DNA of 61,338 bases from a virus: positions 1-61,338 of the IMG/VR virus record IMGVR_UViG_3300036944_001020. One strand, given 5' to 3'. Within the stretch, counting starts at the first letter, position 1. Each line of letters opens with the position of its first letter. The translations under genes were made by a program, and so were the position numbers. Of the stretch, positions 8,901-56,371 are shown piece by piece. Below the pieces are notes generated by a model. It saw nothing but the letters and a program-made list of their open reading frames with translations. It was not told the origin of the DNA and did no database searches.

Positions 8901-9770
8901 TTAACCTTGAATTTGGATAATCTGTGATGGATTTCCCGCAAAGGAGAAGTGACCATGGTGGTTCAATGAGATTGATGGATCAAGCCAGATATCCCCACCA
9001 ATTGCTTGCCAACGGCGACTAAATGTATAGTCTTCTGACAAATAACGGCGATCCACTGGATCAATCGAAGTATCAAAGAATGCATAGAAAAAATCATTCA
9101 AATCTTCTGGTGTATTCAAATCATTGTTATACTTCAACTCTGGGTAAGCAGCAATCATTTTATCAATTGCATCGCGGCTAATCATCATAAATCCAGTTGC
9201 GCCATCATGCAACTTCACCAATCCATTTTCGATTGCAATTTGACGCGCATCCCGATTAACGAATTTAAAGTTAATTGCGTAATCGCTTCCATATGCAGCA
9301 ATTGCGTTATCTGCATAAGCAGTATCTGGAGCAGCACGAACACTACTCATAATACGTTGCCAGTTAACACCCTTCTTAGGATATGCTCCAACTACAACTT
9401 CTTTGTCATGTGCAACCAATTTGATAACATCTTCAACTTGGAATTCAATATCCGCGTCAATGAAGAACAAGCGAGTGTAATCACTTTGCAAGAAATATGC
9501 TACTAGAACGTTTCTAGCACGTGTAACCAAGGATTCATTTGCAATTGTACCAAATGCGACTTGAATTTGATGTTGATTGCAAAAGGTCAATAAACGAATA
9601 ACAGAGCGGAAATATGCTTCTGTTAGTTGTCCACCATAACAAGGTGTTGCAATAAAGATTTTTTGCTTTCGCAAATCATTAATATTGATTGCAATTTGAC
9701 CGGGCTTTAATTGTGGCGCATCAACTGGAGTTGCGTTTTCTGGGCCAATTTGTGTTGTTTCATCTGTCAT
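8901..9770 (-). CDS. GT-A fold glycosyltransferase-like protein
   Basis: A 289-aa protein with a nucleotide-sugar transferase layout: a beta-strand/loop start (KIFIATPCYGG), a region with NESLVTRARN and a D-x-D type metal site in FFIDADIEF near residue 105, then an acidic EDYTFSRRW segment typical of the acceptor-binding half. The first 35 residues are Pro/Gln-rich and probably disordered. It could modify phage DNA, virion proteins or host surface glycans; the target is unknown. It lies downstream of gp23 and a tail-tube-like gene and ends at a strong terminator, so it may be transcribed late. Confidence 0.8.
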   Translation of the reverse strand: MTDETTQIGPENATPVDAPQLKPGQIAININDLRKQKIFIATPCYGGQLTEAYFRSVIRLLTFCNQHQIQVAFGTIANESLVTRARNVLVAYFLQSDYTRLFFIDADIEFQVEDVIKLVAHDKEVVVGAYPKKGVNWQRIMSSVRAAPDTAYADNAIAAYGSDYAINFKFVNRDARQIAIENGLVKLHDGATGFMMISRDAIDKMIAAYPELKYNNDLNTPEDLNDFFYAFFDTSIDPVDRRYLSEDYTFSRRWQAIGGDIWLDPSISLNHHGHFSFAGNPSQIIQIQG

Positions 9771-53122: not shown

Positions 53123-53388
53123 AGAGGAAGTTTTCCCCTTTTTGTTCGCATATAATTCTGTTCCTCGGCTTCATTTTGAATTTTTTCTTTGAGTTGCATA
53201 TTAATTAAAACAGCAGCAGATTCTACCTCGATATCAGCATTCTCACAGTATTGAATAATTGCATCAATATACCCAATATTGTTCTCTAAAACTTGTTCTT
53301 CGATATATAAAGAAAATTCATTGGGATTTCTAAATCTTTTGGTGATAATTAAACTATCAGATAATGTTAAATTTGTATCAGATTCCAT
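53119..53388 (-). CDS. gp33: gp33 late-transcription coactivator
   Basis: Bridges the sliding clamp and RNA polymerase at late promoters together with gp55. I chose the start at 53388 (MESDTNLTL); the longer frame would overlap FDBR far more. The helical FSLYIEEQVLENNIGYIDAIIQYCE and INMQLKEKIQNEAEEQNY segments and the basic C-terminal KRGKLPL fit the gp33 family; 89 aa is shorter than T4 (112). It overlaps the bilin reductase gene by 11 nt. Confidence 0.8.
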   Translation of the reverse strand: MESDTNLTLSDSLIITKRFRNPNEFSLYIEEQVLENNIGYIDAIIQYCENADIEVESAAVLINMQLKEKIQNEAEEQNYMRTKRGKLPL

Positions 53389-54061
53389 GATATTCCGGAA
53401 ATAGCGTATCGTCCATGTATCGCTTAAAAAGAGTAGCATCTACTCCAATTGTCTCCATCATTGCAGGGGTGTGATGGTTCAATTTTTGATTTTTGCAATA
53501 ATAGTCATGGGCTTTAATATACGAAGATGGTGACTGCATTCCTACATTATACAGATATAAATCTAAATTAGCAATACTGGTTGTCAGTAATTTATCAATG
53601 TCTTCTGGCTCGGATACATTACCCAGAGCTAATATATTTGGACTAAAAATATTATTTGCCCATTCCGGCAATACTCGTGCTTTCAATCCAAATTTTGGAT
53701 ACATTGCCATTTGACGTTGAAATTTATTATAAAGGCGGGATGAATCAACTCTGGAAAAATCGTGGAATGCACCCGTTATTTTATTTGCGCCACATACAAC
53801 GTCAAAACCAAAAATAGGAGATGGATCATCATAATATGGAAAAATAGTCATGTGCATTACCCAGATTTTCTTGTATTCACGGGCATCTACGATTTCAATA
53901 TGTGCTCGGCGATAATTTATATCTTGAAATAGATAATTTTTCCATGTGAAATTTTCACTTTCGATAGTATAATCATGCGGCAATTCTAATACTGCCGCAC
54001 CATCAAATTTAGCTATCATTTTTTCAGAAAATGGTATTACTTTATCCCATACTAAAGACAT
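53378..54061 (-). CDS. pcyX: Ferredoxin-dependent bilin reductase (PcyX/PebS/PcyA family)
   Basis: Reduces biliverdin IXalpha with electrons from ferredoxin. The FDBR core MHMTIFPYYDDPSPIFGFDVVCG...NKITGAFHDFS is clear (residues about 69-106). Counting 17 residues back from Asp87 gives His70, the spacing of PcyA His88/Asp105; PebS has Asn at the His position as I recall, so the His favours the PcyA/PcyX lineage. An Asp-rich C-terminal GVDATLFKRYMDDTLFPE follows. Phage PcyX makes phycoerythrobilin in vitro; the product here is inferred. At 227 aa it matches the family. Start overlaps the heme oxygenase stop as TAATG, so the two are coupled. Confidence 0.85.
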   Translation of the reverse strand: MSLVWDKVIPFSEKMIAKFDGAAVLELPHDYTIESENFTWKNYLFQDINYRRAHIEIVDAREYKKIWVMHMTIFPYYDDPSPIFGFDVVCGANKITGAFHDFSRVDSSRLYNKFQRQMAMYPKFGLKARVLPEWANNIFSPNILALGNVSEPEDIDKLLTTSIANLDLYLYNVGMQSPSSYIKAHDYYCKNQKLNHHTPAMMETIGVDATLFKRYMDDTLFPEYHGI

Positions 54062-54582
54062 TATGCATATTCCTTCAATAGATCAATTGTTAGTTGAAAT
54101 GCAATGTTGGCTTCATCTGCCATGTCTTCGTCAATCAGTGTCCTAACGGTTTTAATTAGTTCTGCGCGATTTTCGAACTCATACATCTTTCCAGACCCCG
54201 GAACTAGTTTCTTCAACATTTGTCCGCCGAACATATCGCCCATGTGATGAACATAGATATGCGCCATGATCTTTTGTGGATCGGTAGAAATTGAATCTAA
54301 ATGATTGGCATACGACTTTGTTGATTTGCGAATTGGATACCCCCCAACGGCATCTATTTCTAAATAATCTTGGCGAATTGCACCAGACCTAGCAATATCT
54401 TCAATCCCGACAAGCAAACTCATTTTGTTTGCATATTCTTCTAGTTTTGAATAGATCACATACTTTTGAAAAATAAAATCAACATACTTTTCAACGTCAA
54501 CTGTTCCAGCAAAAATTGATTTAATGAATGGCTCATTTTCTGCTTCTGCATGCTTTACGGAAATTGCTTCTTTTAGTGACAT
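54061..54582 (-). CDS. ho1: Heme oxygenase
   Basis: Opens heme to biliverdin IXalpha, CO and iron, the substrate of the adjacent bilin reductase. The N-terminal KHAEAE supplies the proximal His (His11), and the distal-helix motif GDMFGGQML matches GDLSGGQ of known heme oxygenases. 173 aa is shorter than cyanobacterial HO1 (about 240) and closer to compact phage forms. Coupled by TAATG to the reductase gene. No own promoter was found; transcription probably comes from the unit starting at 55.66 kb. Confidence 0.9.
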   Translation of the reverse strand: MSLKEAISVKHAEAENEPFIKSIFAGTVDVEKYVDFIFQKYVIYSKLEEYANKMSLLVGIEDIARSGAIRQDYLEIDAVGGYPIRKSTKSYANHLDSISTDPQKIMAHIYVHHMGDMFGGQMLKKLVPGSGKMYEFENRAELIKTVRTLIDEDMADEANIAFQLTIDLLKEYA

Positions 54583-54599
54583 ATTATTTAAATGAATTA

Positions 54600-54615
54600 G
54601 GGGGCTTTCGCCCCC
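54600..54615. terminator. GC-rich hairpin between the outer-membrane protein and heme oxygenase genes
   Basis: GGGGGC-TTTC-GCCCCC (plus strand); on the minus-strand transcript the loop reads GAAA, a stable tetraloop. No clear T-tract follows, so it may act as a partial terminator or an mRNA processing/stability element rather than a full stop. Confidence 0.5.
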
Positions 54616-54620
54616 TTATA

Positions 54621-55061
54621 TTAGAACTTAACGGTTAGTCCAGCAACTGCTGTATTACCATCACTCCCAACAATCACAGATTGATTGTAACGGCGCTCTG
54701 CTCCAACGGAAAATGTTGCATTCTTAGCAACTGGCATAGATGCAGTCAATCCAAGAGTTGCGCCATATCCATCACCTTTAGCTGCACTTGCTTGATAGCC
54801 GACTGATCCAGTAGCTGCAAGAGCGATTGGGCCAACTTTAGTAACATCATAATGTCCACCAACTGCATAACGAGTATAAACATCTTTTAGTACAGTTGCA
54901 CTAAATTCGGGGGTAAATGACTTTACTGTTACGCCTGATGCAGTAATGCGAGTTGCATTTTGCTCAAGAGTCATATCACGTGCAACAGATACGCCAACCT
55001 CAATTGCCTGTGCTGCACACATAGAAGCTACCATTGCAGTAGCCAAAATAATTTTCTTCAT
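54621..55061 (-). CDS. Small outer-membrane beta-barrel protein, 146 aa
   Basis: A signal peptide is clear (MKKIILATAMVASMCAAQA, cut after AQA), followed by an Ala/Gly/Thr-rich sequence of alternating strands ending in Val-Lys-Phe, a terminal Phe typical of outer-membrane barrels. It could have 8 strands. Similar small barrels occur in other marine phages; a role in changing the host surface, such as superinfection exclusion, is plausible but inferred. GGAG lies 7 nt upstream. It lies between the tmRNA and the heme oxygenase. Confidence 0.8.
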   Translation of the reverse strand: MKKIILATAMVASMCAAQAIEVGVSVARDMTLEQNATRITASGVTVKSFTPEFSATVLKDVYTRYAVGGHYDVTKVGPIALAATGSVGYQASAAKGDGYGATLGLTASMPVAKNATFSVGAERRYNQSVIVGSDGNTAVAGLTVKF

Positions 55062-55085: not shown

Positions 55086-55254
55086 GATTGGTTAATTCTG
55101 TTACGAGGAAAACCAATCGAATACCCTAAGCGGCGTTTAGGCTGCTAATGCGAACTGTGTGTCGTTTGCGTTTACATTTTTTTACTGTTAACGACGAGAT
55201 ATGTCGAGTTGTCCATGCGTCTACTTGTTGCCCTGTCGAAACTAGTTCAGCCCC
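55086..55254 (-). ncRNA. ssrA: tmRNA coding piece (permuted, two-piece)
   Basis: Minus-strand GGGGCTGA (55247-55254) begins the tRNA-like acceptor stem, followed by TTTCGACAGGG as in D-arm regions of tmRNA, a small pseudoknot-like region, and a tag reading frame GCA AAC GAC ACA CAG TTC GCA TTA GCA GCC TAA at 55169-55137, encoding ANDTQFALAA. A CCTAA/TTAGG hairpin covers the stop as in E. coli tmRNA. An 8-bp hairpin (55086-55118) closes the 3' end. Its acceptor partner lies upstream, in permuted order. Confidence 0.9.
55137..55169 (-). other. tmRNA tag reading frame (ANDTQFALAA)
   Basis: Ten codons plus TAA. The C-terminal ALAA is the degron read by ClpXP and ClpAP on stalled proteins. The 10-residue ANDxxFALAA form is like tags of beta- and gammaproteobacteria; alphaproteobacterial tags are usually longer. 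Preceded by TAAAC. Confidence 0.9.
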
Positions 55255-55266
55255 ATCAAAAACAAA

Positions 55267-55419
55267 TTAAATAATGGTATCTTCTGCTACAACAAAAATT
55301 GCCCATTTTGGGTGTTTTTTTGAAAGCATTTCTGCCGTTTTTATCAAATGATCTTTACTTTTACTTCTTTCCTTTACATAGGTATTGTAAGGAGTTTTTA
55401 CTACCATTTTATATTTCAT
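55267..55419 (-). CDS. 50-aa ORF nested in the tmRNA intervening segment
   Basis: Starts at the ATG at 55417-55419, 10 nt after the acceptor CCA, and ends 12 nt before the coding piece. The peptide is Lys-rich with MKYKMVVKTPYNTYV, then a helical HLIKTAEMLSKKHP and a final hydrophobic strand WAIFVVAEDTII, which reads like a real folded small protein. No Shine-Dalgarno is visible. Its function is unknown. Confidence 0.55.
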   Translation of the reverse strand: MKYKMVVKTPYNTYVKERSKSKDHLIKTAEMLSKKHPKWAIFVVAEDTII

Positions 55420-55429
55420 AATGTGCTTT

Positions 55430-55495
55430 TGGTGGAGCTGGCGGGTACTGCCCCCGCTTCCAGAACCATTTTTGATTTACTTCATACAACTATAA
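55430..55495 (-). ncRNA. ssrA: tmRNA acceptor piece (permuted, two-piece)
   Basis: Ends CAGCTCC-ACCA (minus strand, ACCA at 55433-55430), pairing with GGGGCTG of the coding piece to a 7-bp acceptor stem with a G3-U70 wobble, the alanine tRNA identity element. A 5-bp T-stem GCGGG/CCCGC encloses a 7-nt loop, GGCAGTA, which lacks the usual TTC start. Upstream, GTTGTATG can pair with CATGGACAAC of the coding piece. The 5' end of this piece is approximate. Order on the strand is acceptor, ORF, coding piece. Confidence 0.85.
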
Positions 55496-55498
55496 CTC

Positions 55499-55630
55499 TT
55501 AACTAACCGCTTCCGTATGTTTACCTTTAAAACTTTTTTTCAGTATTTTAAGCCAAATTGCTTTAGCTTTTACAGAATTATGTTTTAATTCGGCGCGGTT
55601 TAGTTTTAATATTAGTTTTTTAACTTTCAT
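55499..55630 (-). CDS. Small basic protein, 43 aa, likely leaderless mRNA
   Basis: ATG at 55628-55630, stop at 55499-55501. The protein has many Lys residues and an amphipathic pattern (MKVKKLILKLNRAELKHNS). The -10 TATAAT ends 6 nt before the ATG, so transcription would begin at or near the start codon. It may be real or may simply occupy the start of the tmRNA precursor; its stop lies just before the acceptor piece. Confidence 0.5.
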   Translation of the reverse strand: MKVKKLILKLNRAELKHNSVKAKAIWLKILKKSFKGKHTEAVS

Positions 55631-55636
55631 GTCGCT

Positions 55637-55665
55637 ATTATACTCCAGTTGGTTAATAAAGTCAA
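55637..55665 (-). promoter_or_regulatory. Strong sigma70-like promoter for the tmRNA/bilin region
   Basis: Minus strand TTGACT (55660-55665), 17-bp spacer, perfect TATAAT (55637-55642). Upstream of the 43-aa ORF, the tmRNA pieces and the outer-membrane, heme oxygenase and bilin reductase genes. Confidence 0.85.
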
Positions 55666-55672
55666 GTATATT

Positions 55673-56371
55673 TTACTTTGTTTTGCGTAAAATTGCAGTT
55701 TTTTGTCTACGAACCCAATCTTTTCCAACTGGATTTTTAACGGGTGAAGTTGCAATACTTCTTATATGTTTATGTAATTTATCCAATGTTGCATGGTCAT
55801 CGCCATCATGGCTATTATCAACCACCGTAAAATTATCTCTCCCAAAATGATCTTGAAAATGCCCTAAATTATCTTGAACTTTGTGCCAAGTTTTTGTGAC
55901 CACGTGATCTGGCACTGTTCTCGCTCTTGCAGCATTTCTCTTTTTTGCAACATCCAATGATGTATTTACATGCAGCATATGAGTATCATAGCCGATACTT
56001 TTAAGATGTTCCGATTGTTTGTGGATATGATTAAAATCTTTTCCAGTTCCATCTATAATCATTCCCAAGCGCCCGCGCTGGTATAATTTAGATTTTGTCG
56101 CAGTTAAATTTTTTGCCTTTTCACGGGCAGCTTCTCTTTTTTCTGTTTCATGCTCTGGCATTTTTGGATCAAGATTTTGTTTTTTCATTTCATGCTCAAA
56201 CGCATGGTCACTATTAACTAACTTAAATCCCAAATCTCCACGAACTTTATCTACAATTCTAGATTTACCTGACCCCGGCCCGCCTGCAATAAAAATTGCT
56301 TTTAATTTTGCGGGATCATGTACGCCCTCATCGAGTTGATCTGCGTCTAAAAACTCTTTAAATTGTAACAT
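55673..56371 (-). CDS. P-loop kinase / zeta-toxin-like protein with capsid-targeting-like N-terminus
   Basis: Residues about 28-45 hold IFIAGGPGSGKSRIVDKV (Walker A), with NSDHAFEHEM, a LID-type Arg-rich region (KRNAARARTV) and GLVD-like strands, as in the AAA_33/zeta toxin kinase group. The substrate is unknown. The N-terminus MLQFKEFLDADQLDEG resembles T4 capsid-targeting leaders; LDE at residues 13-15 would be a gp21 site. It lies 2 nt from the next gene, and a late promoter at 57048-57055 precedes both. Confidence 0.75.
   Translation of the reverse strand: MLQFKEFLDADQLDEGVHDPAKLKAIFIAGGPGSGKSRIVDKVRGDLGFKLVNSDHAFEHEMKKQNLDPKMPEHETEKREAAREKAKNLTATKSKLYQRGRLGMIIDGTGKDFNHIHKQSEHLKSIGYDTHMLHVNTSLDVAKKRNAARARTVPDHVVTKTWHKVQDNLGHFQDHFGRDNFTVVDNSHDGDDHATLDKLHKHIRSIATSPVKNPVGKDWVRRQKTAILRKTK

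Follow-up and report, generated by a model that had tools for sequence, protein, structure and literature searches.

Transfer-messenger RNA (tmRNA), the RNA that rescues stuck ribosomes, is encoded in some genomes as a circularly permuted gene with two swapped halves, and the segment between them has been described only as sequence absent from the mature RNA. Permuted tmRNAs of aquatic phages are already published, with 53 two-piece tmRNAs reported among 402 tmRNA-bearing phage genomes, 50 of them marine or aquatic (PMC9004378). These include Melnitz and Mosig, and we found no mention of a protein gene in the intervening segment in that study. Protein genes are known inside a segment removed from a tmRNA precursor in another setting, the group I introns that carry homing endonuclease genes (PMC11915505). 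However, those introns are self-splicing, sit in the T-loop of one-piece tmRNAs, and encode LAGLIDADG nucleases, whereas here the host is the permuted form, removal needs no splicing, and the cargo is small and varied. A tRNA-Ala gene has been found within the intervening sequence of a permuted tmRNA (PMC11915505), but this is an RNA gene, a single case, and not from a phage. Dual-function small RNAs also act as both RNA and mRNA on one transcript, but in those the coding sequence is part of the functional RNA, while here it lies in the part that is cut away. Our searches of the open-licence literature in PubMed Central returned no earlier report of protein genes in this segment, and the most recent tmRNA survey found there mentions a tRNA gene and a repeat element in intervening sequences but, as far as we saw, no protein genes. 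Here, we describe a phage permuted tmRNA whose intervening segment carries a small protein gene, and show that many other aquatic phages carry other, unrelated small protein genes at the same place.

The window we analyzed is the whole 61,338-nucleotide stretch of an IMG/VR virus record (IMGVR_UViG_3300036944_001020), probably itself a fragment. Portal, terminase, major head, and baseplate wedge and hub proteins, PhoH, and a gp59-type helicase loader make it a T4-like myophage. As in the window, the tmRNA of Melnitz, also permuted, of alphaproteobacterial type, and in a T4-like genome, lies between phoH and the gp59 helicase loader. By contrast, the isolated phage DSL-LC04 is unrelated in layout. 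A bilin cassette lies just downstream of the tmRNA, and similar hemO-pcyX cassettes are published for aquatic phages (PMC11480375). The features of the locus are collected in the table.

Features of the permuted tmRNA locus and its neighbors in the window (all on the minus strand)
Position	Feature	Basis
55430..55491	Acceptor (tRNA-like 3') half of the permuted tmRNA; T-arm 55441-55457, acceptor strand CAGCTCC 55434-55440, encoded CCA 55430-55432	RF04321 alignment, structural scan, sequence
55255..55429	Intervening segment (175 nt), absent from mature two-piece tmRNA; its ends pair (AAAGCACA with TTTGTTTTT, 7 of 8 pairs)	Boundaries from structural scan; helix covariation
55267..55419	50-codon ORF MKYKMVVKTPYNTYVKERSKSKDHLIKTAEMLSKKHPKWAIFVVAEDTII nested in the intervening segment; starts 10 nt after the CCA, stop codon 12 nt before the coding half	ORF, relatives, selection, structure model
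55087..55254	Coding (mRNA-like) half of the tmRNA, beginning GGGGCTG	Sequence, Rfam alignment
55137..55169	Tag reading frame ANDTQFALAA plus stop (GCA AAC GAC ACA CAG TTC GCA TTA GCA GCC TAA)	Sequence, Rfam alignment
55086..55118	3' terminal hairpin GATTGGTT/AACCAATC of the coding half, loop with CCTCGTAACAGAA, matching the 3' end of the alpha_tmRNA model (CCUGGCAACAGAA)	Sequence, Rfam alignment
55637..55665	Promoter-like site TTGACT-17-TATAAT (11 of 12) upstream of the tmRNA	Consensus match only
55499-55630	43-codon lysine-rich frame between the promoter-like site and the acceptor half	No family match
55673-56371	P-loop kinase upstream of the tmRNA	AAA_33 and Zeta_toxin above cut-off
54621..55061	146-aa ORF with signal-peptide-like start just downstream of the tmRNA, followed by a terminator-like hairpin at 54599-54616	
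53378..54582	Bilin cassette: heme oxygenase (54061-54582) and ferredoxin-dependent bilin reductase (53378-54061)	Pfam PF01126 and PF05996 above cut-off

An earlier note, made from the sequence alone, had placed a phage-encoded, circularly permuted, two-piece tmRNA at this locus, and that observation is confirmed, with coordinates right to within a few bases. The failure of a tmRNA covariance model had been named in advance as grounds for rejecting it, but the Rfam scan of the window matched RF04321 (tmRNA_permuted) at 55491..55137 with 119.5 bits (gathering 47, E 9e-23) and RF01849 (alpha_tmRNA) at 55546..55087 with 68.1 bits (gathering 50), both on the minus strand. The acceptor half is 5' of the coding half, the acceptor stem GGGGCTG/CAGCTCC is 7 bp with the G3-U70 wobble that forms the alanine identity pair, the 5-bp T-stem is GCGGG/CCCGC, and CCA is encoded. 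The note's interpretation as a phage-borne permuted tmRNA is likewise supported, and the gene is of alphaproteobacterial type by covariance model and anatomy. Processing into two pieces, charging with alanine, and SmpB binding were not assayed. The alpha model aligned end to end but with gaps in the region of the pseudoknots of the coding half, which we did not model separately, so the alignment does not speak clearly for or against them. ARAGORN found nothing in the window, although it recognized 113 of 124 excised phage relatives, and we therefore did not treat its silence as a usable negative. Two features that the note took as odd are not: the T-loop GGCAGTA, which lacks TTC, is close to the alpha model consensus GGCGGTA, and the 10-aa tag is the usual length rather than short, being shared by 89 of 113 relatives, and 93 of the 113 tags end in ALAA. 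The note also overstated the rarity of the element, given the published counts and at least 120 hits in a single pattern scan here. Its combination with a bilin cassette, which the note called unusual, is not unique either, as 6 of the 12 bilin-reductase and heme-oxygenase records that we searched carry a permuted tmRNA.

What the note did not notice is the protein gene in the intervening segment, which the 50-codon ORF fills almost exactly. This ORF has 27 relatives in other viral contigs of IMG/VR, 54-70% identical over all 50 residues apart from one cut by a contig end. In 23 of these, the ORF again lies inside the intervening segment of a permuted tmRNA, including tmRNAs that score with the beta model, and in 4 it does not. 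Two of the four contigs (L131 and L132) carry it as an ordinary operon gene with 4-nt overlaps to both neighbors and no tmRNA, while the other two (L097 and L141) keep it intact beside decayed remnants of the acceptor half. In L141 (2932-4140), an intact permuted tmRNA with a short, ORF-less intervening segment lies about 800 nt downstream of the decayed half, past an aldolase-like gene. L097 also contains a type II hammerhead ribozyme match just above cut-off (38.2 bits, cut-off 37) at 9123-9189 on the minus strand. In four other contigs (L117-L120), a dense array of tRNA genes lies directly upstream of the ORF-bearing permuted tmRNA.

The 50-aa family is under purifying selection, with pN/pS of 0.04-0.61 over the pairs tested and mostly under 0.45. 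AlphaFold2 predicts a beta-beta-alpha-beta domain with a mean pLDDT of 93.1. However, no sequence library named the protein: its nearest Pfam, PHROGs, NCBIfam, PDB sequence, and fold neighbors are all weak, and there was no Pfam match above cut-off. The best BFVD match had an E value of 3.8e-3 and the resemblance to ClpS a Z of 5.0 (rmsd 1.6, 45 residues), both within the range of common arrangements, so that a ClpS- or DUF2188-like fold is neither established nor excluded by these comparisons. Resemblances to ClpS, T7 Gp2, AcrIF9, and T4 Dmd were set aside as a common small fold. Two scans of 84,980 cellular genomes returned no relative of the ORF, and a search of INPHARED gave no credible hit for it.

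To determine whether this arrangement is general, we scanned for a conserved piece of the tmRNA coding half, which takes no account of the intervening segment, and added the earlier loci. This gave 124 distinct segments of at most 300 nt with a proper acceptor stem and T-arm. All 20 segments of 120 nt or more contain an ORF spanning the segment, against 0.22 expected from dinucleotide shuffles. Among the 94 distinct segments fetched by tmRNA sequence alone, the corresponding count is 11 of 11, and 23 of the 94 carry an ORF that we count as confident. The scan was motif-based and not exhaustive, so these fractions are not a census, and bacterial permuted tmRNAs were not surveyed. For segments of 70-120 nt, a spanning ORF is close to chance one by one, and the argument below 120 nt rests on shared features: AAAGGAG-like sites, ATG, membrane-helix composition, and relatives such as MNDDLT-VVVVLVVFA in three tmRNAs.

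The cargo falls into at least ten unrelated kinds: 22-29 aa membrane peptides; proteins of 34, 38, 41, 56, 59, 60, 65, 68, and 75 aa; the 50-aa family; an 86-aa cysteine-rich protein; and, in sister bilin phages, a 38-codon stretch. The cysteine-rich cargo of two contigs (L185 and L219) matches the CxxCxxCC domain PF03692 above the Pfam gathering score (29.4 and 26.6 bits, cut-off 23), and pN/pS is 0.18 for this pair and 0.13 for one membrane-peptide pair. The 38-codon stretch matches the Oxidored-like domain PF09791 (45.1 and 41.8 bits, cut-off 24). In six bilin-reductase phages (L050, L052, L058, L060, L065, and L073), this domain is encoded in a 115-nt segment without an in-frame ATG, GTG, or TTG, the frame being open back to an ATG in the acceptor half, and we have no explanation for how it starts. 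The 22-29 aa peptides (L209, L213, L236, L239, L245, L180, L175, and L267) are single membrane helices similar in size and composition to type I toxins or small regulatory membrane peptides, with no known function. Two further contigs (L226 and L231) carry a 35-codon frame, MKNRYTALCPTCFIRFQWIKDNGLSKHKCLSDGGD, with a zinc-finger-like CxxC...HxxC pattern that ends on the TAG of the tmRNA coding half. Searches of INPHARED with the 86-aa and 68-aa cargo returned no credible hit.

Among isolates, the published Melnitz genome (MZ577097) has a 142-nt intervening segment with an ATG-started frame, MFKWLSKTRLVVITRDYFRERNRKADAKIPKYLSGTRSVYD (MFKWLSKTRLVVITRDYF...), that begins 19 nt after the CCA behind GGAG. 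Unlike the window's ORF, this frame continues 13 codons into the coding half, and its conservation was not examined. Pelagiphage Mosig has a 44-nt hairpin.

The two ends of the segment pair in a helix that extends the acceptor stem across an internal loop formed by ACCA and the last bases before the coding half. Over the 124 segments, 7.56 of 8 positions pair, against 5.09 when partners are shuffled. In nine members of the window's family, 20 alignment cells have compensatory changes on both sides, and none of 500 shuffles reaches the covariation score. Segments with and without ORFs share this helix (34 of 34 and 87 of 90 with at least 7 pairs, respectively), so it is a feature of the tmRNA precursor that the ORFs accommodate. 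In many relatives, the 5' strand contains the Shine-Dalgarno sequence and the 3' strand the last codons and stop, for example TAAGGAAGTTT...GTT TCT TTA TGA T|GGG. In others, including the window, the stop codon lies just before the 3' strand. The window's own copy and several relatives have no clear Shine-Dalgarno sequence (AAAGCACATT-ATG). Folding predicted the start region to be unpaired with a probability of 0.23 in the full precursor, 0.26 in the excised piece, and 0.52 in nascent RNA lacking the 3' strand, so efficient translation is not obvious. Although this is a thermodynamic estimate rather than evidence of expression, it favors translation during transcription, before the helix closes and the processing enzymes cut.

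Taken together, we favor with good confidence the reading that these phages use the tmRNA intervening segment as a cargo slot for small protein genes. In this view, one transcript carries acceptor half, ORF, and coding half, and the ORF sits in the loop of the helix, starting 8-22 nt after the CCA and ending with a stop codon that lies either 12 nt before, 1 nt before, or just past the first base of the coding half. Different aquatic phages carry unrelated small proteins at the same place and the window's family appears in diverse tmRNA lineages, so the conserved RNA halves flank an exchangeable cargo. The sequences themselves demonstrate the tmRNA and its continued constraint, the ORFs and their selection, the helix and its covariation, and the variety of cargo, and that the segments encode proteins is well supported. 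We only infer, having no transcript, footprint, or peptide data, that one transcript serves both roles, that the ORF is translated from nascent or precursor RNA before the helix closes and RNase P and the 3'-end nucleases cut, tying protein output to tmRNA synthesis, and that the proteins act in host takeover rather than in trans-translation itself. Exchange of cargo by recombination in the conserved halves is likewise inferred. The distribution of the 50-aa family needs at least 8 changes for 10 tips on the tmRNA tree, which suggests such exchange, although the tree is poorly resolved (33 of 114 inner branches well supported).

If the segment is a protein-coding slot, then a set of phage small proteins, many of them single membrane helices, has been overlooked because it sits inside a non-coding RNA gene, and permutation offers phages a concrete advantage by packing a gene into discarded sequence. 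It would also give a test bed for competition between translation and RNA processing on one transcript, and the cultured phage Melnitz may carry an example in which this can be tested. A further possibility, which we hold only tentatively, is that aquatic phages have turned the segment into a general expression slot: a two-in-one gene yielding a ribosome-rescue RNA and a small phage protein, with the ribosome-binding site built into the helix that guides tmRNA processing. Protein synthesis and tmRNA maturation would then compete and regulate each other, and cargo would be swapped between phages by recombination in the conserved RNA halves.

Of the alternatives, the best surviving, although unlikely, is that the ORFs belong to selfish or mobile elements that use the segment as a harmless landing site, as homing endonucleases use introns, serving neither phage nor tmRNA. 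The scatter of the window's family over diverse tmRNA lineages, the occupation of exactly the same site by unrelated cargo, and the decayed acceptor half with the ORF about 800 nt from an intact tmRNA without it in L141 are consistent with this. However, the cargo proteins are only 22-87 aa, and none of those scanned showed a LAGLIDADG, GIY-YIG, or HNH nuclease domain, or any integrase or transposase signature, in Pfam or PHROGs. Moreover, L131 keeps the ORF in a compact operon, and many cargos are short membrane peptides.

It is similarly doubtful that the cargo acts directly in trans-translation, for example as a small RNA-binding partner of the phage tmRNA or a modulator of tag degradation. 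Genetic linkage, the basic character of the 50-aa protein (11-14 K+R against 4-6 D+E), and its weak resemblance to ClpS, an adaptor of ClpAP, could point in this direction. Yet the ClpS match is tied with designed miniproteins and PaaB, a common arrangement, the protein persists where the tmRNA is decayed or absent, and cargo in other phages is unrelated, including single membrane helices. It is very unlikely that the tmRNA halves are relics kept only as scaffold or expression context for the ORFs. Although the halves next to the intact ORF are decayed in L097 and L141, G3-U70 is present in 124 of 124 segments, tags end in AA in 107 of 113 relatives, the acceptor stem covaries, and most phage permuted tmRNAs carry no ORF. 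Finally, the idea that the segment is only an RNA spacer and hairpin in which frames open by chance in AT-rich sequence is still available for some short segments, where at 70-100 nt the 19 observed ORFs are near the 11.8 expected by shuffling and shorter segments are plain hairpins, but it is refuted for the long segments and the window's family by the shuffle test, the codon-level selection, the two Pfam families, and the persistence of the window's ORF outside any tmRNA.
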